Source of the DNA: a virus
Direction: 5' to 3' (one strand)
DNA length: 21,579 nucleotides
Virus record (IMG/VR): IMGVR_UViG_3300020131_000074
Coordinates: 1 to 21,579 of that record
Shown here: piece after piece, positions 5,105 through 21,579 of the stretch
How the letters are laid out: every line of letters starts with the position of its first letter
Numbering within the stretch: the first letter of the stretch is position 1
Notes under the pieces: generated by a model
Database searches by the model: none
What the model saw: the letters and a program-made list of their open reading frames with translations, nothing else
What the model was told of the DNA's origin: nothing
Program-made: the position numbers and the translations under genes

Positions 5105-5125
5105 AGAGGCGCAGGATGCGCTTCT
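5105..5125 (+). promoter_or_regulatory. 5'-leader stem-loop of the tail tube mRNA
   Basis: AGAGGCGC and GCGCTTCT form an 8-bp stem (one G-U) around the 5-nt loop AGGAT. It lies at the expected 5' end of a transcript from the -10 at 5097. Stem-loops at the mRNA 5' end are known to protect highly expressed transcripts; that role here is inferred. Confidence 0.35.
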
Positions 5126-5158
5126 AACCCACCTAACTTCGTCAAGGAGGACGATGTA

Positions 5159-5983
5159 ATGGCATTAGGCTCCCCCAAAACCAAACAATTCCGTATCGGC
5201 ACGTTCGAGGTCCGCATTGGGCCGCAGTCGAGCGCCGGCAAACTCGACGCCTCCCACTCGATCGGGGTCATCGACCAGGTCACGCTCAACATCGAGCAGA
5301 CCTCGGTGGATCTGATGGGTGGCTTTCCGCAGAAAATCATCGACACCGCGCTGACGTCGCAGTCGGCCAGTATCTCGGCCACCTTGCGCGAGTACAGCCG
5401 CCGCAACCTAAACGTCATGCTCGGCAACGCCGTCGCCGCGTACGACTCGACCGACACCAAGTCGACGGTGGACACCACCGCGCAAATCAACGCCGCCGCG
5501 ACCAGCATCCCGCTGACGTCAGCCACCGGTTTCACGGCAGGGGACATCGTTGTGATCTTCGAGGTTGGCAAGCCGGAGTCGGTCACTGTCTCCAAGATCG
5601 ACAGCATCGCGACCAACACCCTGACCCTGGTCACCGGCCTCGGCACCGTCGCCGCCTTCGCCGCCGGATCCGACGTGCTCTGCTACAAGTCGCCGGCTGT
5701 GGCGATCGGTGGCCTGTCGAGCGTCAACTACTTCGCGGTGCAGCTGCTGCAGCTCGAACGCGGCACCAGCCGGCCGATGGGCTTCAACTTCTGGAAAGCC
5801 GCGATCAGCGGCAGTGCTTCGATCGGCGCGTCCCCGACGGAGTTCTCGTCGACCGAAATGCAGATCAAGCTGTTGGAGCCGGCCGCCAGTGAATACGCGG
5901 CGAGCGCGCCGCTGGAGCACTTGTCCAGCGTCATCCCAAGCTACCCGATCGGCATGATGTTCATGTCGTCCGACGCCGCTTAA
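5159..5983 (+). CDS. Major tail tube protein
   Basis: The ATG has the strongest ribosome site in the window (AAGGAGG at 5144-5150, 8 nt spacing); an ATG-TAA minimal ORF lies between them. The 274-residue protein starts with a beta-rich domain typical of tail tube subunits (FRIGTFEVRIG, IDQVTLNIEQTSVDLMGG, ASISATLREYSRRNLNVMLG) and returns to it after ~180 (VNYFAVQLLQLERGT, EMQIKLLEP). Residues ~101-178 look like an inserted small beta domain (SIPLTSATGFTAGDIVVI, then alternating V/I strands and A-G-S-D-V). Such insertions usually decorate the outside of the tube. Position two genes before the tape measure, and its own promoter and terminator, support the call. The presence of one such gene and no sheath gene points to a siphophage. 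Confidence 0.75.
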   Translation: MALGSPKTKQFRIGTFEVRIGPQSSAGKLDASHSIGVIDQVTLNIEQTSVDLMGGFPQKIIDTALTSQSASISATLREYSRRNLNVMLGNAVAAYDSTDTKSTVDTTAQINAAATSIPLTSATGFTAGDIVVIFEVGKPESVTVSKIDSIATNTLTLVTGLGTVAAFAAGSDVLCYKSPAVAIGGLSSVNYFAVQLLQLERGTSRPMGFNFWKAAISGSASIGASPTEFSSTEMQIKLLEPAASEYAASAPLEHLSSVIPSYPIGMMFMSSDAA

Positions 5984-6001
5984 GCCCGAGCCGCCTCGGG
6001 C
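5984..6001 (+). other. Hairpin directly after the tail tube stop
   Basis: GCCCGAG and CTCGGGC form a perfect 7-bp stem around CCGC. It begins on the first base after the stop codon and has no T-run. It may protect the 3' end of the tail-tube mRNA or act with the terminator that follows. Confidence 0.4.
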
Positions 6002-6028
6002 GGCCGGCACGGTCTTCCTTAGGACCTT

Positions 6029-6055
6029 CTGGCCGCCTTCGGGCGGCCAGCTTTT
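6029..6055 (+). terminator. Intrinsic terminator after the tail tube gene
   Basis: CTGGCCGCC and GGCGGCCAG form a perfect 9-bp stem closed by a TTCG tetraloop, followed by CTTTTATC. This is a clear rho-independent terminator lying between the tail tube gene and the chaperone/tape-measure genes. With a promoter upstream it would make the tail tube a separate abundant transcript while leaving some read-through for the downstream tail genes. Confidence 0.8.
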
Positions 6056-6068
6056 ATCGAGGCCTGGC

Positions 6069-6632
6069 ATGTCCATATTCAATAGGCATCACCAACCTTT
6101 CGCGGTCCCTTTACTTGCCTTCGAACGGTTTTCCGAGCTCCGTCAGCAGCTGACCGACGACGCTCAAGTGCTCGAATCCGCCGTCATCCCGACCCTGGCC
6201 GAATGTTGCGGCATGCCCCAGCCGACCGCCGACGCGATCGAGTACTTCATCGAGCGCCTCGAAGCTGCCGGGCGGGAGGCAGACTCCCTGTCCAATCCTT
6301 CCCAACCGACACCGGGTAAGACACTCGGATCCGCCTACGCCGCGGCGCTGCGAGAGCTGGATACCGCCGGACTGATTCTCTACATGTGCGCCTTTGATTT
6401 CCATAAGGCGAACTACGTATACACCCAGCTCGACCGGGACGTCGCCTTGAAGATGCTCGATCACTTCCTGGCGCTGAAAGGCCAGGAGAACAACCTCTTG
6501 TTCGAAGCCTGCCTGTACGGCTTCGGCGGCAAGTACGACGCTGACGGCGGGAGCGCCGAGGTGGTCACGGTAGACCTCAGCAGCGAAGACAACTTCAACA
6601 TGCTCGCCCAACTTTTCGCTAAGACGCATTAG
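6069..6632 (+). CDS. Putative tail assembly chaperone (187 aa)
   Basis: The ATG follows GAGG at 6059-6062. The gene sits exactly between tail tube and tape measure, where siphophages encode the chaperone that coats the tape measure before tail polymerisation. The protein is acidic and largely helical (FSELRQQLTDDAQVLESAVI, ADAIEYFIERLEAAGR, MLDHFLALKGQENNLLFEACLYGFGG), as known chaperones are. Many phages make a second product here by ribosomal frameshifting. In this window only 9 nt separate the stop from the tape-measure ATG, and the -1 and +1 frames close at once, so no frameshifted extension is possible at the 3' end. The function is inferred from position and composition. Confidence 0.6.
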   Translation: MSIFNRHHQPFAVPLLAFERFSELRQQLTDDAQVLESAVIPTLAECCGMPQPTADAIEYFIERLEAAGREADSLSNPSQPTPGKTLGSAYAAALRELDTAGLILYMCAFDFHKANYVYTQLDRDVALKMLDHFLALKGQENNLLFEACLYGFGGKYDADGGSAEVVTVDLSSEDNFNMLAQLFAKTH

Positions 6633-6641
6633 GAGCCCAGG

Positions 6642-9600
6642 ATGGCTGACAAGATCCAACTAGACGCCGTCGTCGACTACATCATCAAAGCCGGGGATGT
6701 TACCAACCTGCCCGAATTCCAGCAGCAGGTCAGTAAGCTCCTGGGCGGCCTCGCCCGGGAGCTCAAGATTCCGAAGGTGCATCTCCCGGTCAACCTCGAG
6801 GCGGGCGACGTCTTGTCTGAAGACCAGCTGAAGGCCTTGAAGGGCGAACTGCACGACGCCTTGAGACAGATCAACCAAGCCCTCCGGCAGGAAACCGACG
6901 GCGCCAAGAGGCAGGCCCTCGCCTCCGTCCGGCTGTTCTACGAGGACATCTCCCACGCCCTCAGCACGATCAAGACCACCAAGGTCACCCCGACGACCCA
7001 AGGGCTGTTCAAGCAGATCCTCGCGAAAGAGCTCGACATCACCGACCCGAAGCTGAAGCAGAAGCAAAAGGCCCAACTCCGGGAATACGCCGCCGCCCTG
7101 GAGTCGCAGTCGAGGGCGCTGAAGGAGATCCAGCGGAAAGCCGCCCGCGGACGCTCGGTCTACTTGCCGGGTGAAGGCGATGGATCGGGCCAGGTGATCA
7201 AATCCCTGCCCTTACAAATTCCGCAGCTCGGCGTCGCGGCTCAGCAGAACCTCACCACGGTTCGGAAGTTCAACCAGCTGACGGACGAGGATCGGATCGC
7301 GGCCCGCAAGGACGCGGAAGCCCTTAAGCTCCGGAAAGGCACCAATCAGCTCGAAGTCTCCGCCGCCAAGCAAGCCGAACGGCAAGCCGAGACTAAGAGG
7401 CGTCGTCAGGAGGCAGAGGACCTTCGGATTCGGCGCGGCACCAATCAGCTGGAGGTTAAGGCCGCGAAAGAGGCGGAGAAAGCCGTGCAACGCGAGCGGG
7501 CCGCCCGCTTCTTGACCGGCGCCGCCGGCCGAGAGCTCGAAACCATTGGCGGGGACCTGACCCGCGCCGGCAAGGAATTCGACTTCGGGCTGATTCGCCG
7601 CGCCCTCAATTCCAGGATCAAGCAGCAGCTCAAGGCAGCCAAGGAAGCGATCACCGAAGCCGCCGCTGAGACGGCGTTCTCGAACGTCCGGTCCTTGGAA
7701 GACTTCAAGCGGAAGCTGGACGAGCGCCGGCGGGAGGTCGAAGGCACGACCTTGGGCCGTTCCCTCACCAAGAAACGGCAGCTGGCGGAGGACTCCTCCC
7801 AGTTCGCGTCCCGCTTGCTCGGGCGGGGCAGGCTCGAGGAGCTCGACGAGCCGACCCGGAAAGCGATCAAGGATGCTCTGAGCCGGGCGGTCGCCTCCTC
7901 CCGCGCCTACCGGGAAGCCGCGGCCGGCAGCCAGGAAGCGATCGAGGCGGAGCGCCTGTACCTTTCCTTGCTGGAAAAGGAGATCAAGTTCAAGCGCGAG
8001 CTGAAGGCGCTCGAAGCGGGCCCACCGGTGGCGGCTCCCCGCGCCGACCGGACCCGGATCGACCAGAAGCTCGCGGACCTTCGGGCGCTCACCGCACAAC
8101 GCGGGCGGGGGCGGCGGGCGATCGATGCGGTGGGGGGACTTTCCAACGTCCTCGATCTGCCCAAGGACACCTATGAAGATGCGCTGGTTTACCTCAAAAG
8201 CCAGCAGCAGCACATCCAGCAGCGGATCAAGGACAGCGACGCCGGCACCGGGCAACGCCTGACCCCGGGGGAGATCAGCGACCTCAACCGGCAGTTCGCC
8301 GAGCAAGCCGTCGCCATCAAAAAGGTCAACGCGGAGCTTCGTGGTAACGTTGGCCTCTGGCACCAAGCCTCCCTGGCGATGCGGGCATTCTTCCGCTATG
8401 CGATTCTGTACGGGTCCGGCTTCGCCTTGCTGGAAGGCCTCCGCCGGCTGACCGGCCAGGTGTTCGATCTTGAGGAAGCCCTCAAAGGGATCCAGGCCGT
8501 CTCGCAGGCCACCTCGGCGGATATGCGGAACATCGAATCCGCGATCAAGCAGACTGCGACCACCACCAAGTTCTCGGTCCAGGACATCGCGGAAGCCACG
8601 CAAACCTTGGCGCAGGCGGGTGTCGAGGCGGCGGACCTGCCGAAGGCCGTCGAGAACGTCGCGCTGTTCGCCGGTGCGACCAAGAGTTCCCTGCAGACCG
8701 CGGCGGACGTCATCGCCTCGATGCGGTCGGTCTTTGCCGATCTTTCCGACCGGACCCTGGCCGATCAGCTGACCAACGCCATCAACATCTCGAAACTGAC
8801 CGCGGACGATCTCAAGACCCTGGTCAGCTTGCAGGCGCAGACGGCGAAATCCTTCGGGCTCAGCTCCAAGCAAATCCTCGGGCTCAACGCCACCTTGTCG
8901 AACATCGGTATCAAGCCGTCGACCATCGCCACCGGCTCCCGCGAAGCCTTGATCGAGGTCCTGTCGCCGGACGAGAAAACCGTCCGGGCGCTGATCCCCT
9001 TGTACCAGAAGATGTTCGGGCAGATCCTGACTGGCAAGGAGATCCGGCAAAGGTTCCTGGCCTTCCAGCAGGACGACAACCCCTTGCTGGCGGCGCTGCA
9101 GGAATACCGGCGGCTCGGTATCGGCGGCGGCGGTCCCAATACCGACGCCTTCCGGGGTGTTCTGGAACGCCGGGCGGAGAACGTATTCCTGCCGCTCCTC
9201 GATTCGCTCGACATCCTCGAGAAGAACATCACCCAGGTGTCGCGGGCGGGCGCCGCGGCCGAGGGGTCCGAGACCCAGATGGAAGCCGCCAACAACCAGA
9301 TCCGGCGGTTCGGCCAGACCATCCTGTCCCTGACCCACACCATCGCGAGCGACGGGCTCCCGGTGGTGAGCCGTTTCTTCAAGTCCCTGGCGGACGGCGC
9401 GAAGTCGCTGCAGGACCGGATTATTGATCGCAAGGCGACCTTGGGTGAGGATACCAGCAAGGCCGCCTTGTCGGGGCTTGGCACCGGGCTTTTGACCTAC
9501 CTCTTGTCTCCCGGCACGAGACTAGCCCGCGGGGCGTTGGGCGTCCTCGGCGGGTTGGCCGGCGGGATTGGCTCGTTGACGGCGTCGCCGGATAACCGCA

Positions 9601-12164
9601 CCGCCAAGGATCTGACCGAACTCAGTGGGACGGCGGGCACGGGGCTTGCCATCGTCGGTGGAGCGATCACAGGCTTCCAGGGGCTTGTGGCGTTGGGCAA
9701 AGGGATTTTCTCTAAGCTTTCCGGCTCTCTGAAGGTTATCTCCACGGCTGCTTCCTGGACCCCGCTCGGCCGGATGGTCGGGTTACTGGCCTCAGCCCTG
9801 GTTGCCGGCAAGGTGGTGTATGACAAATTTTTCGCCAAAGGCCCTTCGCTCGACACCCGGTTGGAAGGCATCGAGGCCCAGCGCACGGCCAAACTCCAGA
9901 AAACCGACGCGGTCAAGCAGGAGTTCGCCCCTTTTTCGGCGGACTCCCAGGGCGGGCCTGCCGAGGAAGCCCGGCAGCTGGCGGACCAGATCTACGGCAA
10001 GGAGATGGACGAGCTGGCCTTCCAGCTGTTCGTGCAGAAACTGGGGGTGGTGCGTCAGAACCTTCTGGATGAACTGAAACGGCTGTCGAATAAAAAGGCC
10101 TCGGGTCAAGACATCGGCGAATCGGGCGAAGCGAAGCTCAGGGAGTTCGAACAGCTCTACGGCTCGGAGTTGTTCTCCGGAGCCCTACCCAAGACCGTGG
10201 ATGAGGCGAAAACTTTCGTCACCTCTCTGCAGAGTTTCTACGCGGGGTTGGAGCAGAAAGGCCAGGAGCTTCTGAACGGCCAGGGCGATCTGGAGGCTAT
10301 GACCGATAAGATCATCGCAATGACGGTGGCGGGCAAGCTCAAGCTTGCCCCAACGGACATGTCCTCGCTCCTGGTCAGTATCCAGGACGCGGCGGTCAAC
10401 GGCCAAGTCGAAATCCTCAAGGAATTCAGGTTCCAGGTTAACAATGCGATTGACGCCTTGGTCAGCCAAGGCAAAGCGTCGCTCGACAATGTCGACTACG
10501 TTCGCCTCCTGAACATCAAGGACACCATTCAGCCGGCGATTGATCAAGCCAAGCAACGCGCTGCTGAGATCGCGGCGGAGAAAGCTCGTCTGCAAGCCGC
10601 TCGCGAGAAAAACGCCGCGGAACAGGAGAAGGAGGGCCAATCCGAGCTCGATCTCAAGGAAGTTGATCGGCTCAGCAAGATCCTGGAAACCAAACGCCGG
10701 GTGGTCGACGAGCAGATCGCAGTCGCCAAGGACGAGAAGGACCAGAACAAGATCAGCGCCCTGATCCTGGAGCGGGCCGGCACCGAGGAAGCCATCAACC
10801 GCTTGCTGACCCGGAAGGCCCAGCTCGAAGGAGTGATCACCGACGACCTCATTCAACAGGAGGCAGGGCTTCGGCGGAAGCAGAACGAGGAGCACTCGAA
10901 GCGCCTGACTCTGGAACAGGGTGCCTCGAAGGAGATCGAGAAATCGAACAAACAGCTGCAGACTCAGCGCAACAAGCTGCAGAAGATCAACGAGCGCTTG
11001 TCCAGCGCCGAGCAGCGGTACCGCGAATCCCTCGACAAGCTCAATGAAGCCAAGGGCAAACAGCGGGAGTCTCAAAACTTCTTTGCCGACGCCAAGCGCG
11101 AGCTGTCCGGCGAGCAGATCTCGCCCTCCGACCGGATCCGGGAACTCTTGGATCGCGCCAGAAAGCAGCTTAAGGGCGGCGCTTTCGACGAAGCCGAGTC
11201 GGATGCTAGGGGCGTCGTCGATTTCGTCCGCTCGGGGCTGCAGGACGGCACGGTCTCCCGGTTCGACGCAGGAAGCGTGGTCGACGAGGCCGCCACGATC
11301 GCCGCGGAGTCCCAGAAAAAGAAAGTGAGCACCGCGGAGGAACGGGCGATCCGAGACAAAAACGCTCTGCTGCAGGTTCAGGCGGACGCAGCAGCGGTAC
11401 AGGCGAAGATCGACGCCTTGGAAAAGCGGATCGAGGATCTTGGCAAGCTGAAGATCGGCTTCGACCCGAAGCAAGTCGACACGGTCGCCGACCAGCTCTT
11501 GGCGCAGCTCGATGACAAGCTCCAGGCCCATCCGGTCGAATTGCCGATCTCGGGGCCCGACGGGAAGCCGATCCCATCGGACACCACGGGCGCGGCGACG
11601 CCGGCCCCCTCGGCGGCTTCGTCCGCCTCGACCGACGCGGCGTCTCCGAAGATCTTTAGTTACGCGGACGAGAGTGGCCGTAGGGTCTACACCGACCGTT
11701 CTACCCCTATTGAGAAGGAGCCCCAAACAGGAGAGCAAAGATTTACGCAATCCCCTTATGGGGCGCCGACGTCGCTTCCCGACAGTCTCGTCGACTCTGT
11801 TCATAAGCCCCTGCCCGAGATCACCTTCAGCAACCCGGCCAACGGCGTCGAAGGTATTTCCCTGGCTGATGCGGAGCGCTATACGGAACGCCTGAGACGT
11901 GGTGGGCCAAGGCTTGGAAACATCTCCTCCCTGGCTGAACGGGCAGCGCGTATCCATCTGCCGGACTTGGCCGCCCCGGAGGTCAATTTGCCCTCGGTGA
12001 GCCCCGCCACTACCTTGTCACAAGCTGCCGAACAGGTTTCCAACAAGACGCCGGTCAACCTCTACATCAGTAATGAGAGGGTGCCCGTCTTGGCCGACAG
12101 TAACGCGGCTGATACACTACAGCGACTGCTTGCACTCCAAGCGCTCAAGGAAGGGCGACGCTGA
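6642..12164 (+). CDS. Tail tape measure protein (1840 aa)
   Basis: The ATG follows AGGAG, 9 nt after the chaperone stop. This is the longest gene in the window. Residues ~1-560 are charged, helical and coiled-coil-like, with a 33-residue tandem repeat at about 227-292 (both copies contain RGTNQLEV or KGTNQLEV). Residues ~580-900 match the conserved phage-tail tape-measure domain (LEEALKGIQAVSQATSADMR, then TTKFSVQDIAEATQTLAQAG, and ITGKEIRQRF-like sequence). Three hydrophobic Gly/Ala/Leu segments lie at about 940-985, 996-1022 and 1045-1064, as expected for a protein that enters host membranes on DNA ejection. Long coiled coils follow (~1300-1400 and ~1426-1478). Near the C-terminus, residues 1670-1687 (KIFSYADESG then YTDRS) resemble the DUF4124 domain of proteobacterial envelope proteins. 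Its stop overlaps the next ATG (TGATG). The protein should set tail length and occupy the tube lumen. Confidence 0.92.
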   Translation: MADKIQLDAVVDYIIKAGDVTNLPEFQQQVSKLLGGLARELKIPKVHLPVNLEAGDVLSEDQLKALKGELHDALRQINQALRQETDGAKRQALASVRLFYEDISHALSTIKTTKVTPTTQGLFKQILAKELDITDPKLKQKQKAQLREYAAALESQSRALKEIQRKAARGRSVYLPGEGDGSGQVIKSLPLQIPQLGVAAQQNLTTVRKFNQLTDEDRIAARKDAEALKLRKGTNQLEVSAAKQAERQAETKRRRQEAEDLRIRRGTNQLEVKAAKEAEKAVQRERAARFLTGAAGRELETIGGDLTRAGKEFDFGLIRRALNSRIKQQLKAAKEAITEAAAETAFSNVRSLEDFKRKLDERRREVEGTTLGRSLTKKRQLAEDSSQFASRLLGRGRLEELDEPTRKAIKDALSRAVASSRAYREAAAGSQEAIEAERLYLSLLEKEIKFKRELKALEAGPPVAAPRADRTRIDQKLADLRALTAQRGRGRRAIDAVGGLSNVLDLPKDTYEDALVYLKSQQQHIQQRIKDSDAGTGQRLTPGEISDLNRQFAEQAVAIKKVNAELRGNVGLWHQASLAMRAFFRYAILYGSGFALLEGLRRLTGQVFDLEEALKGIQAVSQATSADMRNIESAIKQTATTTKFSVQDIAEATQTLAQAGVEAADLPKAVENVALFAGATKSSLQTAADVIASMRSVFADLSDRTLADQLTNAINISKLTADDLKTLVSLQAQTAKSFGLSSKQILGLNATLSNIGIKPSTIATGSREALIEVLSPDEKTVRALIPLYQKMFGQILTGKEIRQRFLAFQQDDNPLLAALQEYRRLGIGGGGPNTDAFRGVLERRAENVFLPLLDSLDILEKNITQVSRAGAAAEGSETQMEAANNQIRRFGQTILSLTHTIASDGLPVVSRFFKSLADGAKSLQDRIIDRKATLGEDTSKAALSGLGTGLLTYLLSPGTRLARGALGVLGGLAGGIGSLTASPDNRTAKDLTELSGTAGTGLAIVGGAITGFQGLVALGKGIFSKLSGSLKVISTAASWTPLGRMVGLLASALVAGKVVYDKFFAKGPSLDTRLEGIEAQRTAKLQKTDAVKQEFAPFSADSQGGPAEEARQLADQIYGKEMDELAFQLFVQKLGVVRQNLLDELKRLSNKKASGQDIGESGEAKLREFEQLYGSELFSGALPKTVDEAKTFVTSLQSFYAGLEQKGQELLNGQGDLEAMTDKIIAMTVAGKLKLAPTDMSSLLVSIQDAAVNGQVEILKEFRFQVNNAIDALVSQGKASLDNVDYVRLLNIKDTIQPAIDQAKQRAAEIAAEKARLQAAREKNAAEQEKEGQSELDLKEVDRLSKILETKRRVVDEQIAVAKDEKDQNKISALILERAGTEEAINRLLTRKAQLEGVITDDLIQQEAGLRRKQNEEHSKRLTLEQGASKEIEKSNKQLQTQRNKLQKINERLSSAEQRYRESLDKLNEAKGKQRESQNFFADAKRELSGEQISPSDRIRELLDRARKQLKGGAFDEAESDARGVVDFVRSGLQDGTVSRFDAGSVVDEAATIAAESQKKKVSTAEERAIRDKNALLQVQADAAAVQAKIDALEKRIEDLGKLKIGFDPKQVDTVADQLLAQLDDKLQAHPVELPISGPDGKPIPSDTTGAATPAPSAASSASTDAASPKIFSYADESGRRVYTDRSTPIEKEPQTGEQRFTQSPYGAPTSLPDSLVDSVHKPLPEITFSNPANGVEGISLADAERYTERLRRGGPRLGNISSLAERAARIHLPDLAAPEVNLPSVSPATTLSQAAEQVSNKTPVNLYISNERVPVLADSNAADTLQRLLALQALKEGRR

Positions 12165-12688
12165 TGGGATGGACGACACGCAATTTCGCTATCGGGACCG
12201 CGATCATTGAGGTCCCCCAGGCGCTTCAGTTTTCGCAAACCTACGAAGAATTCGGCGGCGTCAATACCCTCCGCATGGCGGATGGCTCGGCCGTTCGCCA
12301 GTCCAACTGGTCGAAGCTCCGGACTACCTTGTCTGGTGAAGGGTTCGTTCCGCCCGGCCTCGCGGGCGTTGCCTGGAAGACCCAGCAAACCCTGAAGTGC
12401 GGCGTCAAACGCTCGCTTCAGTCCCCGAGCAATGTCATCGCCCTTCCTGCCGCCCGGCGCACAGACGCGGGTTATGAACCGAACGGTTACGCCTTGAAGG
12501 ATGGGATGTGGTTACCCTCCTCGGTCAGCGTCGTCACCAACACCGCGACCGTGACCGCGGTCACCGGTGCCACGGCCTACATGGTCGAGTATTACCCCCA
12601 ATTCACCGCATTTATCGAGCCCCCGCAGGCCGACTTCAATCGGACCACGGGAACTTATCGCTGGACGATCAACGCTGAAGAGGTTTAA
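12164..12688 (+). CDS. Tail-tip protein, possibly distal tail (Dit-like) (174 aa)
   Basis: The ATG shares bases with the tape-measure stop (TGATG), so the two are translationally coupled. The protein is beta-rich and without membrane segments. The first half (FSQTYEEFGGVNTLRMADGS then VRQSNWSKLRTTLSGEGFVP) is followed by a hydrophobic strand pattern in the second half (SVSVVTNTATVTAVTG, AYMVEYYPQFTAF). The first gene after the tape measure in siphophages is usually the distal tail protein that joins the tube to the tip. That is the basis for the role; no diagnostic motif is visible. Confidence 0.55.
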   Translation: MGWTTRNFAIGTAIIEVPQALQFSQTYEEFGGVNTLRMADGSAVRQSNWSKLRTTLSGEGFVPPGLAGVAWKTQQTLKCGVKRSLQSPSNVIALPAARRTDAGYEPNGYALKDGMWLPSSVSVVTNTATVTAVTGATAYMVEYYPQFTAFIEPPQADFNRTTGTYRWTINAEEV

Positions 12689-12690
12689 AG

Positions 12691-14355
12691 ATGGCTGCAC
12701 GCTACTGGAGAGTTGACCAATTCACCGTGACCGGAGGCGCGGGGTTTGATCTGGCCATTTACGCGCTGGAGCTTTACAGCTTGGGCTCCGCCGTCTCCAA
12801 CACCGTGACGCTCAATTGCAACAAGACACCGACTGCAGGGACCTTGGCTGAACTTCAAGACGGCAGCAATGTGACCGGCGCCACCTTCGCGGCGGCGGAT
12901 GTCGCGACCCTCGAATTCATCTTCGATGCCGGCGCGGGGGCCGCCTTGGAGTCTGACGCCATTAAGTTCGTGGTCAACGGCGTGGACAACTACCCGGCCT
13001 CGGTGCGGGTGTCCTGGTCCAACGACGCCGTGTCCTGGATCATCGCTGGACAGATGAGCAACTTGACTGCCAACACCTCGGGCATCTCGCTTTACCTTGA
13101 CTACTGTCCTCCGTTCCGAGGGGCGACCGGGACGATCACGGAAAGCCTGGCCGAGTCTACGTTTACCGTCCGGATCGCGAACGCCACGAACGGCACGGTC
13201 CTGAAGTCCGTCACCACCAAGACCAACTTTTACGGGTACCACAACACCTCGACGGCGGATGACACCCCTTTGATGATCACGGCGTACGCCGATCACGGCT
13301 CTCGCTGGCGGTCCAGCGTAACAAAATCCTTAACAAATCTAATCTTCCCGTCGGATCCGGCCGTCGGGCATTACTACGAGTGCGAGGTGGCCGGCACGAC
13401 CGGGGCGACCGAACCGGTGTGGCCCACCAACGGCGGCACCGTGGTCGATGGTACCGTGACCTGGCGAGACAAGGGACAAGTGGTGCAACCGGTAACCCAA
13501 TACCCTCTCTCCCTGGCGAGAATGCCGGGTGGCGGGTTGGTGACCGACGGGTTGGTCTTCATTCTGGACGCCGGGTTCGCTCGAAACTTCGCCAACGCCT
13601 CGGACCAACTGTGGCGGAACTCCGTTCCGTCTCCGGCGGACGGGTCGGCGGCGAGTGCCTACAATTTCTATCGGGGCGTGGACGGCACTTCAGAAACCAC
13701 CGACCCGACGTTCACGGGGACTATCAACAACGGGATCTCGGCGACTCAGGCGAACCAGCCCTACTTTTCGTTCTCCCTCACCGCGCCGTACAAGTTCTTT
13801 ACCTTGGCCGCCGCGACGGCGTTTCTCAAAAGCCTCCACAAGGCCGGGGCGAAATTCACCTTCGAGGTGTTTTTGTACGCCGGCACGGCTCTGACGGATG
13901 CCCCCATCTTCGATTCCGGCACCGGCTTTACGGCGACCGACGTGCATCAAGGTGTCCAGTTCTGCCGCTACCCGGCCTTGTTCAAGAACGGGGTCCTGGT
14001 CGCCGGGGACACCGGCGGCAGCCCCGCGTTGCAAAAGTTCTCGGACGCCACGGTTACGGGGTCGACGTTCAACTACCTGGCTGCCTCCATCGACGGCACC
14101 GGGGCGCAGGCCTCGTTCTTGTATCGGAACGGCGCCTACGACCCGGTGGGCGGACAGAATACTTGGGACGGGACTTTCGTCTCCCCGAGCACGGTGGATC
14201 CGCCCAACCTGCCGCGTATCGGCATCCGCGGGGATGCCGCCGCGGCGGCTTTAGGGACGGCTCGAATCTACTTCCTGAGGCTCTACAACCGGAATCTCAC
14301 CAAGGCCGAGCTTGACCAGAACTTCAACGCCCAGATGCACCGGATGCAGATCTAA
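12691..14355 (+). CDS. Tail adhesin with discoidin-like and LamG-like domains (554 aa)
   Basis: The ATG has GAAGAGG nine bases upstream, straddling the previous stop. Residues 1-~130 start with YWRVDQF and contain IYALELYSLG and RVSWSNDAVSW, the pattern of F5/8 type C (discoidin) sugar-binding domains. Residues ~225-265 (YYECEVAGTTGATEPVWPT, then DGTVTWRDKG) are the short GTTG-TEPxWPT module common in phage fibres. Residues ~285-554 look like a LamG/concanavalin-type jelly roll: GLVFILDAGFARN at its start, FTFEVFLYAGT in the middle and ARIYFLRLYNRNLTKAELDQNFNAQ-type sequence at the end. The protein is probably a tail-tip receptor-binding protein recognising surface glycans. The domain recognition is by eye; the substrate is unknown. 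Confidence 0.7.
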   Translation: MAARYWRVDQFTVTGGAGFDLAIYALELYSLGSAVSNTVTLNCNKTPTAGTLAELQDGSNVTGATFAAADVATLEFIFDAGAGAALESDAIKFVVNGVDNYPASVRVSWSNDAVSWIIAGQMSNLTANTSGISLYLDYCPPFRGATGTITESLAESTFTVRIANATNGTVLKSVTTKTNFYGYHNTSTADDTPLMITAYADHGSRWRSSVTKSLTNLIFPSDPAVGHYYECEVAGTTGATEPVWPTNGGTVVDGTVTWRDKGQVVQPVTQYPLSLARMPGGGLVTDGLVFILDAGFARNFANASDQLWRNSVPSPADGSAASAYNFYRGVDGTSETTDPTFTGTINNGISATQANQPYFSFSLTAPYKFFTLAAATAFLKSLHKAGAKFTFEVFLYAGTALTDAPIFDSGTGFTATDVHQGVQFCRYPALFKNGVLVAGDTGGSPALQKFSDATVTGSTFNYLAASIDGTGAQASFLYRNGAYDPVGGQNTWDGTFVSPSTVDPPNLPRIGIRGDAAAAALGTARIYFLRLYNRNLTKAELDQNFNAQMHRMQI

Positions 14356-17036
14356 TGCCGTACACGCCCAGCTACAACCTGACCCTCCCCGGCGGGCAGT
14401 ACACGCCGGACTATGATATTGACCTGAATCCCTCCGGGGGCGTCGGCTTTTCAGAGGTGGGCAGTCTCAGCGCGACCCTCGAGCAGACTATCTACGCCAC
14501 CGGTACGGTCTCGGCGACGATCGAACAGCAGATCCTGGCTGACGTCTACACCATCAAGGCCCCGGTCCAGCAGGTGGTTTACGACGTCGGCTCGCTTTCG
14601 GCGACGATCGAACAGCAGATCATCGCCTACCAGGTCGGTTCGATCTCGGCGACCCTGGAGCTTCAGATTTACACCACGGGCTCGATCGCGGCGACGATCG
14701 AACAGGTGCTTTACGACCCCAGCGGGTTCTTGCCAGCCCCCGGCGACACGCAGTTGTGGGCGGTCAAGGTTTACCTCGACGGCGTCGACGTTACGGCCAG
14801 CGTCACCGGCCTCATCACCGTCGACGCGGAAGAAGGCGCGGCCCGCATCGCCACCTTCGTCATGATGCCGACCTTCGGCCCGATCGCGGTTTCGGCATGG
14901 GTCAACAAGCCGGTTCGGATCGACTACCAACTGGCGACCCCGGGTGACGTCGTAATCAAACCCTTGTTTATCGGTCGGGTGGATACCCCGGAGTACGACC
15001 CGAACACCCGCCTGACCACGTTCAAATGCTCGGACTTCCTGCAGAAGCGCTTCGAGCAAGCCTCGCGCAAGCAGATCCTCTCGGAACTCGGCGGATCCTG
15101 GTCGAGTGTGGTGTTCGACGAGCACGCCAGCAACGTGGATTACGCCCACGACGTACTATCCACGATCCCGGCCAGTTACGACCTCACGGTCGATGGAGTG
15201 GGCAAGCTGACCTACTGGAACACCCAGTCGGGTCCGGATTACACCTTCACCGCCGGGCACTTGGTCGATGGCTCCCTCACGGTGGAACTGGCGTCCAGCC
15301 GGAGCGTGGTGAACCAGGTGGAGCTTGACATCGGGTTCCGGTTCGACCGGATCCACGAGCAGAGGCAGCGGTACGCTTGGGATTTCTTCTTGTCCTCGTT
15401 CAGCTTGTCCTGGAAAGACGTGGCCGTCGACGGCATTCCGATGCCGACGACGAACATGATCCAGGAGGCGATTCAAGGGGTGGATTGGCCCTTGGTCGGT
15501 TCGCCCGTCTTCTTCGCGCCGCCCTCCTATGTCGAGTATTACACCACCGGTTCCGACGGCACCCTCAATGTTGGCTATCTGGTCAATCCGCCCGGCATCT
15601 GTGTCGGCGCGAATTTCACTTTGGCCAAGCGCTGGGCGCAGCAGATCACCGAGCGCAGCCGGTTTCTGGTCAAAGCCCCGCAGTCCATCGAGCAGATGGG
15701 GTTGGTCCCGGAAGAACAGGGCTACGCCTACGAGCCGGATTCGAGCGCCTACCACTTTTATAATGTGTTCGAGGAAACCTGGAACAAGCCCTATGTCGAA
15801 GGGCGGGTCGGTTCGGCGGGGGTCGTGAGCCAGCAGTTCACTCCCGCAGATGCCGTCTCCGGCAGCTACACCTGGTACCGTTATCCGTTTCCCTCGGCGG
15901 CGAACAGCACCGATTATGGCGAGTATGTCGATCTCGACGAGATCCAGATCGTCAACCTCCTCGCAAGCCCGGAGAACCTTTCGGCCTGGTCCGGCAGCGC
16001 CGGGGTCGTCAGCAACGTGTCCGTGAATCTGGACGGCGAAGCCAAGGGCGACAAACTGACTCTGGCCTCGAACACCTATCGGGAAACCACGGCCAACGTC
16101 GAGCCCAGTGTCACCTACACCGTGTCGGTTTACCTCCAAACGGATGTCGTGAACAACGGCCGGTCGATCTACCTGACCGCGTCCGATGACGATGAGGTCT
16201 CCGAGGCCACGGTGTGTTACCTCTCCACCCAGTGGGCCCGGTACAGCGTCACCCTCACCACCGGGGCCAGCGCCACCCAGCTGACGCTCCGCCTCGGGGG
16301 CGGCGGCGACGCTCTGGTCGTGTTCGCCGACCGGGCGATGGTGAACGAGGGCCCTCTGATGGAGTACACGGCGAGCACCGGCAAGTCCAGCCGGCAGCTC
16401 GCCGAGGAAGCGATCGTCTGTGCCCAAGCGCAGGCCAAGACCGCGATCCTGGCCTCGCACCGCAACAACGTCGTCCAGTTCAAGACGATACTCAACCCCT
16501 TGCTGGAGCGGTTCCACAAGCTCAGAGTCGACACAGCGTCCGTGCAAGCGACCGGGAAGGTCAAGCAGATCACGCACGAGCTCGACACCTTCGCGTGCTC
16601 GGCTTTGACCACCGTGCGACTGGCGATCAGCAAGGTGGTGGCCAATTCGGTCCCGGCCGAGACCGTGTTGGCCGCGCCGGCCAAAGCGGTGTCGGCACCC
16701 CTGTCGCCGGACGAGGACGAGGTGACGGCAACCGGCCGCTTAGGGACCTGGATCGGGTTCCTGGAAAATCCGGTGCCCGGCGCCCCTTACGATTACGTGT
16801 CGGGCGTCAACGGGACCACCTACTTGTCGTACGACCCGATCTACGGGTATATGGCCGATGCGACCGCCACCCGCAGCACCTTCGATTTGAGCAAGCTGTA
16901 TTATGGCTACGGCGAGCCGCGCTTCGTCATCGGGACGCCGGCGATCCACCGCAGTAACACAGATGAGACAATCAAGTATAATCAGGCGGAGGTCATCGTC
17001 GCCATTCCGGACGATGAACTTGTGATGGCGGCCTAA
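14355..17036 (+). CDS. Tail hub / baseplate protein with inserted carbohydrate-binding domain (893 aa)
   Basis: The ATG overlaps the previous stop (TAATG). Residues ~35-120 hold four copies of a G-S-(L/I)-S-A-T-(I/L)-E-Q-Q-I motif, 14-29 residues apart. Two of them share an identical 24-bp DNA stretch (14510 and 14597 regions). From ~131 a tail-hub fold follows: WAVKVYLDGVDVTASVTG, then FIGRVDTPEYDPNTRLTTFK with CSDFLQKRFE. It resumes near the end with KVKQITHELDTFACSALTTVRLAIS-like sequence, typical of gp27/gpJ-type hubs. Residues ~533-675 (LLASPENLSAWSGSAG, then TYTVSVYLQTDV and WARYSVTLTTG) look like a CBM4/9-type jelly roll placed inside the hub. The protein should form the central tip through which DNA exits and may contact surface polysaccharide. 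Hub identity is likely; the CBM subfamily is uncertain. Confidence 0.7.
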   Translation: MPYTPSYNLTLPGGQYTPDYDIDLNPSGGVGFSEVGSLSATLEQTIYATGTVSATIEQQILADVYTIKAPVQQVVYDVGSLSATIEQQIIAYQVGSISATLELQIYTTGSIAATIEQVLYDPSGFLPAPGDTQLWAVKVYLDGVDVTASVTGLITVDAEEGAARIATFVMMPTFGPIAVSAWVNKPVRIDYQLATPGDVVIKPLFIGRVDTPEYDPNTRLTTFKCSDFLQKRFEQASRKQILSELGGSWSSVVFDEHASNVDYAHDVLSTIPASYDLTVDGVGKLTYWNTQSGPDYTFTAGHLVDGSLTVELASSRSVVNQVELDIGFRFDRIHEQRQRYAWDFFLSSFSLSWKDVAVDGIPMPTTNMIQEAIQGVDWPLVGSPVFFAPPSYVEYYTTGSDGTLNVGYLVNPPGICVGANFTLAKRWAQQITERSRFLVKAPQSIEQMGLVPEEQGYAYEPDSSAYHFYNVFEETWNKPYVEGRVGSAGVVSQQFTPADAVSGSYTWYRYPFPSAANSTDYGEYVDLDEIQIVNLLASPENLSAWSGSAGVVSNVSVNLDGEAKGDKLTLASNTYRETTANVEPSVTYTVSVYLQTDVVNNGRSIYLTASDDDEVSEATVCYLSTQWARYSVTLTTGASATQLTLRLGGGGDALVVFADRAMVNEGPLMEYTASTGKSSRQLAEEAIVCAQAQAKTAILASHRNNVVQFKTILNPLLERFHKLRVDTASVQATGKVKQITHELDTFACSALTTVRLAISKVVANSVPAETVLAAPAKAVSAPLSPDEDEVTATGRLGTWIGFLENPVPGAPYDYVSGVNGTTYLSYDPIYGYMADATATRSTFDLSKLYYGYGEPRFVIGTPAIHRSNTDETIKYNQAEVIVAIPDDELVMAA
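16954..16982 (+). promoter_or_regulatory. Possible internal promoter before the last tail genes
   Basis: A perfect TATAAT (16977-16982) stands 17 nt after GTAACA (16954-16959, four of six matches to TTGACA), near the end of the hub gene and ~70 nt before the GTG at 17051. The local sequence is AT-rich for this genome. It could give extra transcription of the last three tail genes. It lies in coding sequence, so chance cannot be excluded. Confidence 0.25.
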
Positions 17037-17050
17037 ACACGGAGGTTGAC

Positions 17051-17476
17051 GTGGCCCTAAGCTTCAAACTGTACACCGACGCAAACCTAACAGCCCCACT
17101 GGCTGGGAATCTGATTTGCGCCCAGAACGCCGACGGCAGCACGCCGGCCGTGGATAAAATCCTCTATCTAGGGTCCACGACCGCGAGCCGGAAGCTCGAG
17201 GCCAACTCCAACCCGGGCGTGGACCAGATCGTGGTCAGCGTCGTGGACGCCGTGCCGGCGTCCGGACATCCGGCGACCGAGGTCAAACTGGCCACCACCT
17301 TGGCGGGCCTGAACTCCGCGGTCGGCGGCGCGTCCCTGAATATCGGCACCCAGATCTTGTCCGGGGCGGCCAACGCCATCCCGATCTATATCCGGGTCAA
17401 TGATTCCACTGGGCAGGTAGGCACGGCGACGGAGCTCTCCGTCGCGATCGCCAACGTGCGCGAGACCAGCGTCTAA
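17051..17476 (+). CDS. Minor tail protein, unknown family (141 aa)
   Basis: The GTG start is preceded by ACGGAGG, 14 nt after the hub stop. The protein is beta-rich and low in charge. It begins MALSFKLYTDANLTAPLAGN and ends with alternating strands (AIPIYIRVNDSTG, ELSVAIANVRET). The middle (DQIVVSVVDAVPASG, SLNIGTQILSG) also reads as short strands. This suggests a small jelly-roll or Ig-like virion domain near the tail tip. No signal peptide or catalytic motif is present. It overlaps the next ATG by one base (TAATG). The family is not recognised. Confidence 0.75.
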   Translation: MALSFKLYTDANLTAPLAGNLICAQNADGSTPAVDKILYLGSTTASRKLEANSNPGVDQIVVSVVDAVPASGHPATEVKLATTLAGLNSAVGGASLNIGTQILSGAANAIPIYIRVNDSTGQVGTATELSVAIANVRETSV

Positions 17477-17871
17477 TGGTAGGGGAGGCCGCCACCGCGG
17501 GGCTGAATCGCGCCTGGACCGGGCGGACGGATGAGCGGCTGGCCGAGGAGATCGGCAAGCTCACCCCGCCCGAGAAACGGAAGCACCAGACGCTCGGCCC
17601 AGCGCGGACAGCCGCTTCGATCGAGGCCCAGACCGGCATTGGCAAGCTGAATGTCGCGGATGCGGGCGGCGACAGTGACTCGACGGCCGCGGGGATCACC
17701 CCGCCCCTCACCGAGCCGGATGTGTCCGCTCGGGAATACTACGACCCGCAAACCCTGACTTCGTCGGACGGCCTCTTCACCTTTGAAGTGCGTCCGATCG
17801 CCAAGGCGGTGTTCATGGACGCCGCCGGTCAACGCGTGGAACTGATCTACGCCGAGCCGCTCTTGCCGTGA
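17476..17871 (+). CDS. Minor tail-module protein, unknown function (131 aa)
   Basis: The start shares its A with the previous stop (TAATG). The N-terminal ~70 residues are charged and helical or disordered (DERLAEEIGKLTPPEKRKHQ). A Gly/Asp/Thr-rich linker follows, and the last ~45 residues are strand-rich (LFTFEVRPIAKAVFMDAAG, RVELIYAEPLLP). It ends with a GTGA overlap into the next gene, so it is certainly within the tail operon. The acidic linker and small C-terminal domain would suit a tip accessory or chaperone-like protein, but there is no direct evidence for either. Confidence 0.7.
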   Translation: MVGEAATAGLNRAWTGRTDERLAEEIGKLTPPEKRKHQTLGPARTAASIEAQTGIGKLNVADAGGDSDSTAAGITPPLTEPDVSAREYYDPQTLTSSDGLFTFEVRPIAKAVFMDAAGQRVELIYAEPLLP

Positions 17872-19607
17872 TCCAGCTCGATCACATCGTCAAGGAGAAT
17901 GACCCTGGGATCCTAGGGTTTCCCTACCACGGGCGGCTGGTGAACGGGATGCTGTTACTCCCGGCGACGGTGCAAGTCACCAACACCGCGGGCAACTTCT
18001 ACTTGCCGAACGGCCGCCAGGTGTATTGGTCGGCGGACTACAGTGCCTATTACTTCCCCTTGACCGCGCCCAGTTCGTCCCTGTCGTTCTACGTCAAAAA
18101 GCCCGGCATCGCTCCCATCGTCCGAACCCCGGCCGAGCAAGCCTGGGACCAAGCGAATGGGTATGAATGGCGGAACGATGCCATCCTCTATGGGGGTTTT
18201 TTGTATGGGAAATCGCTGGGGTCCACCGACCGGTTCCTGTTCTTCGGAACGGACGGCAGCCGCTGGCTGATCGATGTCAGCGGGATCACGATTACCGACG
18301 GCAATACCCTTGGTGGTTCGATCTCTGCGACAAAATTCGGGGAGTTCGGCGGGACCTCGGAAGTCATCACAGCGCCGGTGTCGGTCAACGACCTGGGACA
18401 GGCCACGCCGACTTTGTCCTATTCGGGAACGATTGATTTCCAAAACGACGACCCTGCCACCCGGACGATCAAAGCGACGACGGTCAGAGTCTCGGATACG
18501 ACCTCCTCCGGGGACAAGGCGATCCTCGGGCTGTACGACACGCAGTCTCGAAGCGCCGCCAACCCCGCGATCGGCCGCTGGTCGGATTGGGACGGGTACA
18601 AATACAACGCCATTACTTTTTGGCCTTTGGGGTTTGTTGAGCTGTCCCTCAGCTATAACCCGAACGGATCCCCGAAGATCACAGCCACTTGCACCGTCTC
18701 GAAGACGCGGGAACAAGTGCTCGGAGGCTATTCCTCGTCCAGCGTCCCGGCCTCCGTCGTCCTTGTCGACCAGAACGGGGACTCCTGGTACGGCTACCCG
18801 ATGATCAATACGGTTTATTCAATCACCGACCGGATCCTCGGGATGGGGTACACCAAAGCGAATGCTCTGTTTGAGATCAAGCTGAGTTTTTCCGAGACCA
18901 TCTCGGGGACGTCGAGCTACGCCACGGACCCCACGGGGGTCACCGGGATGACCGGCTCGACCACGACCACGGCCAGTCTCACCTTGTCGGTAGGGTCGCA
19001 ATCCAAGACGATCAATTACACAGGGTCGAGCACCAGCACTTGGGGCCCGCCGTCGGTCCCGATCGACCAGACCAATTACGAGGCGATCAACACCGTCTCG
19101 GCCGAGCAGTTCACGAGCGGGTACACCCAGCATTCCCGGGTGCTCACGGACGTCCAGATCATCGATGAGAATCACGCGGTGTATGGTGTACCGGCCGCGT
19201 CGTCCGTCGGGTTCCGGGTTTCGACCGGGAGCAGTCAAAATGCTATCGACTGGGATCGGTATCAGATGTCGAGTAGGGTTATCGCGACGCTCCTTGATGC
19301 TGACACCGCGCAGGTCGGGGACTTAGCGGCGGTGAAGTTCAACCTGGGCCTGCAGGGGAACAAGCTGGCGGTCCACCGGGCCAAGGCATACCGAGAACTG
19401 GACGGCTCTCAGAACGGGCTACTCTATTCAGACGCTCACTACCTGAAGACGGCGCTGGCCTATAACAGCGAGGTCAATCACATCACCCCGAACGACATCT
19501 ATCAGGAGAATGTGACCTACGCCTCGTCCCCTCTGGCGTTTGGGGTTTTCGACCCTTACAACGAAGCGATCCTTTGGCCCTACGCCTCGCCGATCTGGGT
19601 GGTCTAG
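17868..19607 (+). CDS. Large minor tail protein, unknown family (579 aa)
   Basis: The GTG overlaps the previous TGA (GTGA). The protein is beta-rich and full of Ser/Thr/Tyr/Gly, with no membrane segment or signal. The N-terminus (HIVKENDPGILGFPYHGRLV) leads into strand-rich regions with many aromatic residues (VYWSADYSAYYFPLTAPSSS, GYEWRNDAILYGGFLYGKS). A Ser/Thr-rich stretch lies at ~355-400 (GTSSYATDPTGVTGMTGSTT), probably a flexible linker. As the last gene of the tail operon it is a candidate tip or fibre protein contacting the host. Its stop codon shares the palindrome CTAG with the stop of the convergent pilin gene. No known domain is recognised. Confidence 0.75.
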   Translation: MIQLDHIVKENDPGILGFPYHGRLVNGMLLLPATVQVTNTAGNFYLPNGRQVYWSADYSAYYFPLTAPSSSLSFYVKKPGIAPIVRTPAEQAWDQANGYEWRNDAILYGGFLYGKSLGSTDRFLFFGTDGSRWLIDVSGITITDGNTLGGSISATKFGEFGGTSEVITAPVSVNDLGQATPTLSYSGTIDFQNDDPATRTIKATTVRVSDTTSSGDKAILGLYDTQSRSAANPAIGRWSDWDGYKYNAITFWPLGFVELSLSYNPNGSPKITATCTVSKTREQVLGGYSSSSVPASVVLVDQNGDSWYGYPMINTVYSITDRILGMGYTKANALFEIKLSFSETISGTSSYATDPTGVTGMTGSTTTTASLTLSVGSQSKTINYTGSSTSTWGPPSVPIDQTNYEAINTVSAEQFTSGYTQHSRVLTDVQIIDENHAVYGVPAASSVGFRVSTGSSQNAIDWDRYQMSSRVIATLLDADTAQVGDLAAVKFNLGLQGNKLAVHRAKAYRELDGSQNGLLYSDAHYLKTALAYNSEVNHITPNDIYQENVTYASSPLAFGVFDPYNEAILWPYASPIWVV

Positions 19608-20143
19608 CAGGCCCCTTGCCCCTTTTCCACCGACGCCCTCCCCACCGGTCCCAGCGTCAGGTTCTTGGATTTGTTCGCGCCATCGTCGCACAGGGTGACG
19701 GTAACGAGACCGCCGGTGGGCCGCGTTCTCGCTCCCAGCGAGTTGAAGCCTAGACACACCCGGTCCTCGGTCACTTGGATGGCGTGACCCCTGGCTTCCG
19801 TTGAATAAAGGACGAGGTCCGCCGGGTAGCCGTCGTGCGCCGCGGCGTCGATCTCGCAGCCGGCGTCGAGCGTCTGGTCGTAATCCACGAACACCAGCAT
19901 CCCTTGCTTCCAATCCGTGCCGCAGGTGTTGCCAGGGCCTTTGGGGCAGAACGACACCGGGGCGTTCCGTCGGATCGCCTCGCCCCGGATCTTGACCAAA
20001 TCGAGGAGAAGATCGTTGGCCTGGGTGACCAGGCGGTTGTTGACGATGAGGTCCCGGAAGGACGGGACGCCTAAGGCGAGGGTGATGGCCAGGACCGCGA
20101 CGGCCACTATCAGTTCGATGAGGGTGAAGCCTGAGACTCTCAT
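19604..20143 (-). CDS. FimT/GspH-family type IV pseudopilin (phage cargo gene)
   Basis: The ATG (minus strand) has AAGGA eight bases upstream. The 179-residue protein has a classic type III signal: a 5-residue leader MRVSG, cleavage before F6, and the hydrophobic helix FTLIELIVAVAVLAITLALG with the essential Glu at position 10 (E5 of the mature form). The following helix (FRDLIVNNRLVTQANDLLLD) and a beta-rich C-terminal domain with six cysteines (66, 74, 96, 130, 152, 179) match FimT/GspH minor pseudopilins. These are processed by prepilin peptidase and built into a type IV pilus or type II secretion pseudopilus. The C-terminus reads GRAS at 168-171, whereas the DNA-uptake FimT proteins carry GRxR there. 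It is encoded opposite to the tail genes and next to the attachment region, as lysogeny-expressed cargo genes often are. The family is sure; the role is not. Confidence 0.88.
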   Translation of the reverse strand: MRVSGFTLIELIVAVAVLAITLALGVPSFRDLIVNNRLVTQANDLLLDLVKIRGEAIRRNAPVSFCPKGPGNTCGTDWKQGMLVFVDYDQTLDAGCEIDAAAHDGYPADLVLYSTEARGHAIQVTEDRVCLGFNSLGARTRPTGGLVTVTLCDDGANKSKNLTLGPVGRASVEKGQGAC

Positions 20144-20307
20144 ACCTGGTTTCCTTATAAATAAAGTCTAAGTGTAGGCCAGCGCCCAAAGTCTGCTGTG
20201 TCAAAACTGTGTCTAGGGTTATGTGAGAAATCCAGGGAAATCAGATCGTCGGCAACGGTCGACCTCCTATAACCCTTTGATTTTCTTACATTACCTGTAT
20301 TGCTAGA
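20144..20307. other. Non-coding left arm of the attachment region
   Basis: This 164-nt stretch is AT-richer than its surroundings and holds no credible gene. It contains the upstream region of the pilin gene and a pair of direct repeats that look like integrase arm sites. I find no 5' half of the tRNA gene here. On the minus strand a perfect TTGACA (20204-20199) is present, but no -10 box lies at the right distance, so the pilin promoter remains unclear. Confidence 0.6.
20198..20215 (+). repeat. Paired direct repeats GTGTCAA / GTGTCTA (left integrase arm sites)
   Basis: Two heptamers start at 20198 and 20209, exactly 11 bp apart, about one helical turn. The same pair geometry and sequence occur on the other side of the tRNA core. 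Paired short direct repeats flanking the core are the usual arm-type binding sites for the N-terminal domain of tyrosine integrases. Confidence 0.5.
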
Positions 20308-20355
20308 GCATTCATAATGCGGGTGTCGGCGGTTCAAGTCCGCCCGTAGCTACCA
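20308..20355 (+). other. Attachment core: 3' part of tRNA-Met(CAT)
   Basis: These 48 nt equal tRNA positions 29-76. They hold half the anticodon stem, the loop TTCATAA with anticodon CAT at 20313-20315, the variable loop, and a perfect 5-bp T-arm GGCGG/CCGCC around TTCAAGT. The 3' acceptor strand CGTAGCT, the discriminator A and an encoded CCA follow. The two lowest anticodon-stem pairs are broken and no D-arm or 5' acceptor strand lies upstream, so this is not a working tRNA gene. A tRNA 3' half beside an integrase gene is the typical attP/att core. On integration it would restore the host tRNA-Met gene. Confidence 0.85.
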
Positions 20356-20362
20356 CAAATTC

Positions 20363-20394
20363 AAAGGCTTGGGCGTTTCGCCTAAGCCTTTTTT
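20363..20394 (+). terminator. Intrinsic terminator of the tRNA-Met fragment (also behind the integrase)
   Basis: AAAGGCTTGGGCG and CGCCTAAGCCTTT form a 13-bp stem (one G-U pair) with a TTT loop, followed by more Ts. It lies 7 nt after the tRNA CCA and is placed to end a tRNA transcript on the plus strand. In reverse it lies 10 nt beyond the integrase stop and may end that transcript too, though its T-tract is poorer in that direction. Confidence 0.8.
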
Positions 20395-20401
20395 GTTTCC
20401 G

Positions 20402-20420
20402 GTGTCAACGGAGTGTCAAC
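20402..20420 (+). repeat. Paired direct repeats GTGTCAAC (right integrase arm sites)
   Basis: Two identical octamers start at 20402 and 20413, 11 bp apart, and overlap the 3' end of the integrase gene. They mirror the pair at 20198/20209 on the other side of the tRNA core, in the same orientation. Confidence 0.5.
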
Positions 20421-21412
20421 CGCGTCAGCGGGTTAAGCTCCAGCACTTCCCGCAAATGATCCGGCGCGAGATGCGCATAGCGCATGGTCATGGTTAGATT
20501 GGCATGGCCGAGGATGCGCTGAAGCGCCAGGATATTACCACCGTTCATCATGAAGTGGCTGGCGAAGGTGTGACGAAGAACGTGGGACATCTGGCCTTCA
20601 GGAAGTTTAATTCCCGATCTTTCGACAGCCTCCCGAAAAGCACTGTAGCAGGATCGGAAAAGACTCCCCGCCTTTTTCGGACGACTATCGAGTATTTCCT
20701 CGACCAGCGGCAACGCTACCGGAATGACTCGGACTCTTCCGCTTTTAGTTCCGCGAAATGTGACCGCGGAAGGATCGCGAGACATATCCCGGACGTGAAG
20801 CCCCTCCCCTTCGGACCATCGGCATCCGGTGGCAAGACAGATCCTTACGACATGGTAAGTGTCCGGATTCGTTGAGGCTCGACATTCATCCAGAAGCAAA
20901 CCTATTTGCTCTAAGGTCAGATACGATAATTCACGTTCATCGACGCGCAGCTTTCTGACCTTCGCCAGTGGATTACGTCCCGACCACTTGCCGATACGCG
21001 AGAGTTCCGAGAAGACCGCCGATAGCGTTGCCTGTTCCCGGTTGAGCGTGGCGACTTTCGTTCCTTCAGCCAATCGCCGCGAGCGGTATTCCACAAACGT
21101 CTCGGAAGTGAACGCGGTTGCCGGTGGATCGCCGATGTAATTGCATAGAGCGGTCAAGCGCTTGTAAGTATCCCCAGCAGATTTAAGGCCAATCCCGTGA
21201 TGATCAAACCATAGCTTGACCAGATCGGACAACGGACGCTTGTCAGGCTTTTCCGGTCGCCATTCTGGTTGCTGGATAATCTTTCCTTGAATGAATCGTT
21301 CAAACTGGAGAGCTTCGACTTTCGTGGGGAATTTTTTGCGAAAGCGTTTCCCGCCCCGACCGCCCGGTTGAATGTCGACCTGCCAGCCGGCCTCGGTTTT
21401 CTTGATCGCCAT
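20405..21412 (-). CDS. int: Tyrosine-recombinase integrase, P2-like
   Basis: This 335-residue protein should integrate and excise the phage DNA at the tRNA-Met site. Residues 1-~55 (basic, KRFRKKFPT) form the arm-binding domain; ~58-150 is the core-binding helical SAM-like domain (LSDLVKLWFDHHG onward). The catalytic domain shows all expected residues: R198 in ATGCRWSEGEGL, K223 in GTKSGR, H277 and R280 in SHVLRHTF, H303 in LGHAN and the nucleophile Y312 in MRYAHL. The RWSE form of box I is typical of P2-group integrases. Length is normal and the gene looks intact. The Shine-Dalgarno is weak, and a small gene ends 19 nt upstream, so the two are probably cotranscribed. Its 3' end abuts the attachment core, the usual arrangement for this family. 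Confidence 0.93.
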   Translation of the reverse strand: MAIKKTEAGWQVDIQPGGRGGKRFRKKFPTKVEALQFERFIQGKIIQQPEWRPEKPDKRPLSDLVKLWFDHHGIGLKSAGDTYKRLTALCNYIGDPPATAFTSETFVEYRSRRLAEGTKVATLNREQATLSAVFSELSRIGKWSGRNPLAKVRKLRVDERELSYLTLEQIGLLLDECRASTNPDTYHVVRICLATGCRWSEGEGLHVRDMSRDPSAVTFRGTKSGRVRVIPVALPLVEEILDSRPKKAGSLFRSCYSAFREAVERSGIKLPEGQMSHVLRHTFASHFMMNGGNILALQRILGHANLTMTMRYAHLAPDHLREVLELNPLTRLTLR

Positions 21413-21431
21413 GGTTCAGACCGGTCGGTGT

Positions 21432-21579
21432 CTACGCCGCCTTGCCGATCAGCCGCCTCAGGGCGAGGCCTTTTTCGATCTGTTCCCTTAAGTCCGCTTC
21501 GGTCAGGTTCCTGGAGCGGTAATAGCTCAGAAGATCGTCGAAGCAGTCGAGCCGCTTGAGGTTTTTCATGACCTCCCGC
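21432..21579 (-). CDS. Small basic ORF upstream of the integrase, open at the window edge
   Basis: Reading the minus strand from the right edge, an ORF runs to a stop 19 nt before the integrase. If the ATG at 21569 is the start it encodes 45 residues (MKNLKRLDCF to LRRLIGKAA). A GGGAGG lies only about two bases before that ATG, which is tight. The frame is open to the edge, so the true start may lie outside. The composition (helical, NLTEADLREQIEKGLALRRL) would suit a small regulatory or DNA-binding protein, and excisionase-like genes often precede an integrase. No family is recognised. Confidence 0.45.
   Translation of the reverse strand, partial: REVMKNLKRLDCFDDLLSYYRSRNLTEADLREQIEKGLALRRLIGKAA

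Follow-up and report, generated by a model that had tools for sequence, protein, structure and literature searches.

The window, by which we mean the whole stretch of 21,579 nucleotides analyzed here (positions 1 to 21,579 of the IMG/VR virus record IMGVR_UViG_3300020131_000074), carries the tail genes of a tailed phage, which we call T, at its left, a tyrosine integrase and the end of a replication gene at its right, and the 3′ half of a tRNA gene between them. The features are as follows:

1–19607, + strand: tail region of tailed phage T (PhageMin_Tail; collinear with the related record G001, one mismatch to record G154).
6642–12164, + strand: tape measure of T (PhageMin_Tail, E = 8e-20).
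14355–17036, + strand: tail protein of T, 893 aa, in the tail region.
17868–19607, + strand: last tail-side gene of T, in the tail region.
19604–20143, – strand: FimT/GspH-type pilin, the final T gene before the core (GspH, E = 2e-11; N_methyl, E = 6.5e-6), in the same place in G001.
20252–20307, + strand: left arm of T’s attachment site, 85% identical to G001 when aligned jointly with the core (107 columns, 20252–20355).
20308–20355, + strand: shared attachment core, bases 30–77 of a tRNA-Met(CAT) without the 5′ half.
20363–20391, + strand: terminator-like hairpin on the inovirus side of the core, with a 13-pair stem and a T run (one found against 0.4 expected).
20405–21412, – strand: int_I, the tyrosine integrase of an inovirus (Int_N, E = 2e-32; Phage_integrase, E = 3e-21).
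21432–21579, – strand: inovirus rep gene, 3′ end only, truncated at the edge of the window (complete at L002:3185–4495; phrog_1159, E = 3e-106).

The core is a perfect 3′ half, identical at 48 of 48 positions to the corresponding bases of the 77-nt tRNA-Met(CAT) gene and spanning the anticodon stem to the CCA. It is present as a single copy in the window, where the next-best match reaches 26/48 and shuffled windows reach 25–28. With ARAGORN, the window yields no complete tRNA, the best match to the 29-nt 5′ half is 18/29, equal to that in shuffled sequence, and neither an overlooked 5′ half nor a second core rises above chance in the window, G154 or L002 (the latter being the two records that continue the window to its left and right, respectively). 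The first-pass annotation had described just such an isolated tRNA-Met 3′ half, with tail genes and a pilin to its left and an integrase to its right, and the profile matches agree with it on both flanks. The full tRNA-Met(CAT) or further copy of bases 20308–20355 that it had proposed looking for is absent from all three records, and the observations that it had named as telling against it (host genes beyond the small ORF at the right edge or on the pilin side, or a missed 5′ half) were likewise not made; the small ORF is in fact the 3′ end of rep, which continues in L002.

The search for a restored tRNA-Met in host genomes, which the same annotation had suggested, led to a methanotroph. In a scan of 84,980 genomes, each representing a different species, the exact 48-mer had a single occurrence, within the intact tRNA-Met gene of Methylocaldum sp. 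14B (L084:966–1042), and directly behind this gene lie both a very similar, nearly identical terminator hairpin and a remnant of int_I (85% nucleotide identity over 321 bases; 82% amino acid identity over 55 residues). A second Methylocaldum genome (G064) likewise has the tRNA in intact form, with a short remnant of int_I behind it. Based on the tRNA match and the integrase remnants, the host is probably a Methylocaldum-like methanotroph (a methane-oxidizing bacterium); a homologue of the inovirus Zot protein was looked for in four Methylocaldum genomes and not found, so the assignment depends on those two features.

To the left of the core, the sequence belongs to T. A second record of this phage, G154 (36.1 kb), shows a single mismatch to the window over 18,218 aligned bases (window 1–18218) and adds to T a terminase, a protease and a capsid-like gene, such that T combines the morphogenesis genes expected of a member of the Caudoviricetes (GpA terminase, E = 3e-19; S49 protease, E = 4e-38; and the tape measure listed above), with a capsid match that is weak and below the Pfam cut-off. 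At the far end of G154 lies T’s own integrase, int_T (364 aa), which is 83% identical to the integrase of G001 and matches int_I weakly and in the C-terminal part only (28% over 81 residues). The left end of G154 falls exactly at a stop codon, and four records carrying int_T relatives (L167–L170) likewise end on stop codons; such ends resemble those left by provirus trimming, which suggests that T was integrated. We note that G154 has, past int_T and before the end of the record, an HNH-like gene (L143:17636–18109, recognized by eye and unmatched in Pfam); in G001, core and integrase are separated at this place by just 288 bases.

The 86.5-kb IMG/VR record G001, which is circular by virtue of a 127-bp exact end repeat, shows how such a phage is arranged around the core. 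Window positions 1–20143 are collinear with it at 72–80% nucleotide identity, and its order is tail genes, pilin, core and then tyrosine integrase. At 85% identity, the homology covers the core plus ~55 bases on its left side, and stops at the last base of the core. A similar left arm is found at the same distance from the core in G078:C213, to which we return below. The remainder of G001 is collinear with T as represented by G154, apart from a segment of ~52 kb (L095–L099, ~2613–54550) that separates the early genes of G001 from those on the terminase side and is absent from T. The pilin (L003:9579–10169 in G001) is 35% identical between the two phages, compared to 78% for a neighboring tail protein, which marks it as fast-changing cargo that may serve in lysogenic conversion by acting on type IV pili. 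Separately, three 61-nt repeats spaced 87–90 bases apart lie at 14479–14716, within the gene for the 893-aa tail protein.

To the right of the core, the sequence leads into a different kind of element. Over the 3332 bases of window positions 18248–21579, the junction included, record L002 (8.7 kb) has the same sequence as the window. It then extends 5.4 kb past the window edge and there carries, on the integrase strand throughout, rep, Zot and DUF2523 genes together with a pIII-like and a coat-type gene. The families recognized in it (Zot, E = 9e-39; DUF2523, E = 1e-16; phrog_1859, E = 2e-11; and rep, as listed) show an operon that unites a pI/Zot-type ATPase with a replication gene and short genes of coat type, which is the combination taken here to identify an inovirus. 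The right arm is thus that of an inovirus as judged by gene content, L002 ending before the far attachment site. When the rep and tail proteins were used as queries against viral contigs, sibling records only were recovered.

Relatives of int_I in bacterial genomes are consistent with this assignment. We examined 20 loci, the best int_I relatives (42–55% identity) among 151 Methylococcales genomes, and in 12 of these a rep gene like that of L002 adjoins the integrase. In most of the 20, the integrase faces an intact tRNA gene (for Gln, Leu, Lys or Thr) tail-to-tail, the nearest such distances being 57–97 bases, and therefore the usual neighbor of such an integrase is an intact tRNA and not a half. 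Five rep-int-Zot prophages have, at a distance of 9.7–12.9 kb from the intact tRNA, a copy of its 3′ half, and genes of Zot type were recognized in several of the Methylococcales prophages. The pairing of rep with int is thus seen in Methylococcales genomes, whereas the integrase relatives in IMG/VR (~44–55% identity) gave no matches to the rep, Zot or coat proteins of L002, and therefore the integrase family as such is not specific to inoviruses.

Because the left arm is that of T, the right arm is that of the inovirus, and the homology to G001 breaks at the core, the junction reads T-left, core, inovirus-right, with the break at the core. Base composition (~59–65% GC to the left, 54–63% to the right) gives no clear separation of the arms, and so was not used as evidence. 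The first-pass annotation had offered two explanations for a lone 3′ half between phage genes, namely a single unintegrated, circular or permuted phage, or two prophages that meet in tandem at one and the same tRNA. The former would make the locus the attP of one tailed phage whose integrase is int_I, and one 3′ half between phage genes does look like an attP, a layout that circular G001 indeed has. T, however, has its own integrase at its other end in G154, the right arm runs on into rep, Zot, DUF2523 and inovirus coat-type genes, and the homology to G001 stops at the core; G154 and L002 therefore contradict this explanation, which we regard as extremely improbable. The second explanation is supported, with the difference that one partner is a tailed dsDNA phage and the other a filamentous phage, a mixed pairing that had not been foreseen.

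We consider it likely that the locus is the inner junction of two prophages lying in tandem at one tRNA-Met(CAT) gene, in what is probably a Methylocaldum-like methanotroph. As in other tandem arrays, there are separate integrases (int_I in the window, int_T in G154), and the inner 3′ half lies between different elements. The full order would then be host 5′ half and core, int_T through T to the pilin, core, int_I, rep and the remaining inovirus genes, core, and host. Each element would bring a tRNA 3′ half with its attachment site, such that the outermost copy only would be joined to the 5′ half and work as a tRNA, and the inner copies would remain as 3′ halves. In its native state, T would have an attP with the pilin on one side and int_T on the other, and the native integrase-side junction of the inovirus would be an intact tRNA; the hybrid seen here would arise by site-specific recombination at the shared core, giving the same junction whichever element arrived first. 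That both elements are chromosomal, that another core lies at the far end of the inovirus, and the identity of the host are points that we infer. Against the tandem arrangement, an exact-end search of viral contigs, both past the inovirus far end (the right end of L002) and to the left of T (the left end of G154), gave known records only, and the lack of a Zot homologue in the four Methylocaldum genomes also counts against it, as does the fact that the two records containing the junction may come from related samples and are thus not surely independent.

The same pair of records bears on whether the junction exists at all. If T and the inovirus were separate, an assembler could have bridged them through the 48-nt core, which both elements use and which, as a repeat, is below the usual read length. 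Yet the two records have different ends and share the same junction with zero mismatches over the 3332 bases, and we consider such an assembly join very unlikely. A further possibility is that the inovirus integrated, by means of its own integrase, into the attP of T’s free circle, yielding a tailed phage with a complete filamentous phage as cargo. This would give an identical T-left, core, inovirus-right junction, and T’s attP has the right core, as the circular form of G001 demonstrates. On the other hand, the exact stop-codon end of G154, as in trimmed proviruses, suggests an integrated T, and T would need to package ~10 kb extra (an estimate taken from the 9.7–12.9 kb elements described above), making this arrangement unlikely. 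Were the inovirus to lie inside T at its attP, or were the two to excise jointly between the outer cores, a tailed capsid could move a whole filamentous genome into a new cell, an outcome to which we assign a similarly low probability.

Returning to the tandem arrangement, both tandem arrays at tRNA genes and neighboring inoviruses and tailed phages are already known, and what is unusual here is the pairing and the shared core resolved to the base. For tRNA genes, the Islander database counts, in a set of 3919 islands, 125 tandem groups with at least two members (PMC4383910), and, as in these arrays, each member here has its own integrase and tRNA fragment and is joined to the next by a shared tRNA core; unlike such arrays generally, the members are a tailed phage and an inovirus, and the outer ends are deduced. 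Inovirus prophages have been reported with, and sometimes colocalized with, Caudovirales prophages (PMC6813254), and our locus resembles those cases in that an inovirus prophage adjoins a tailed one; colocalization is reported there in general terms, whereas in our case the attachment core that the two share is defined to the base. Filamentous prophages in tandem have been described for CTXphi/RS1-type elements and for Vibrio genus VII (PMC11630473), where elements are likewise stacked at one attachment site. Those tandems are of filamentous phage with filamentous phage, with the CTX type using host XerC/XerD at dif, in contrast to the phage-encoded tyrosine integrase, tRNA gene and tailed partner seen here. 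Finally, helper-embedded satellites (PMC10111431) also place a smaller element against or inside a tailed prophage, and so bear on the possibility of an inovirus carried within T, but they reportedly insert in a late gene of the helper, whereas here an inovirus is the small partner and meets the tailed phage at the tRNA core that both use.

If the tandem arrangement is correct, the locus would provide a base-resolved route, through one 48-nt tRNA-Met core, by which tailed dsDNA and filamentous ssDNA prophages become neighbors. The shared core offers a possible mechanism for part of the reported colocalization of inoviruses and tailed phages, and predicts that separate or joint excision could occur. 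The locus also argues for caution, in that a metagenomic contig with a tRNA half resembling an attP does not have to come from a free phage, and the analysis records inovirus prophages at tRNA genes in methanotrophs.

Other sequences at this tRNA-Met point to further occupants. In G078:C213 and G003:C42, a 3′ half without a 5′ half is followed by int_T-type remnants, and from this layout, with the remnants to the right of the half, G078:C213 is taken to be another stacked site at tRNA-Met. To the left of its 3′ half, with the T-type left arm, lies a region of mercury-resistance type (L149, 1–5000). An inovirus-type left arm considered in G003:C42 (GCAACG adjoining the core) was dropped, as it comprised too few bases. 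The 98-kb virus record G155 (L171, 1–1043) starts exactly at the first base of the core, from which it differs by one base, and carries an int_T-type integrase of 67% identity.
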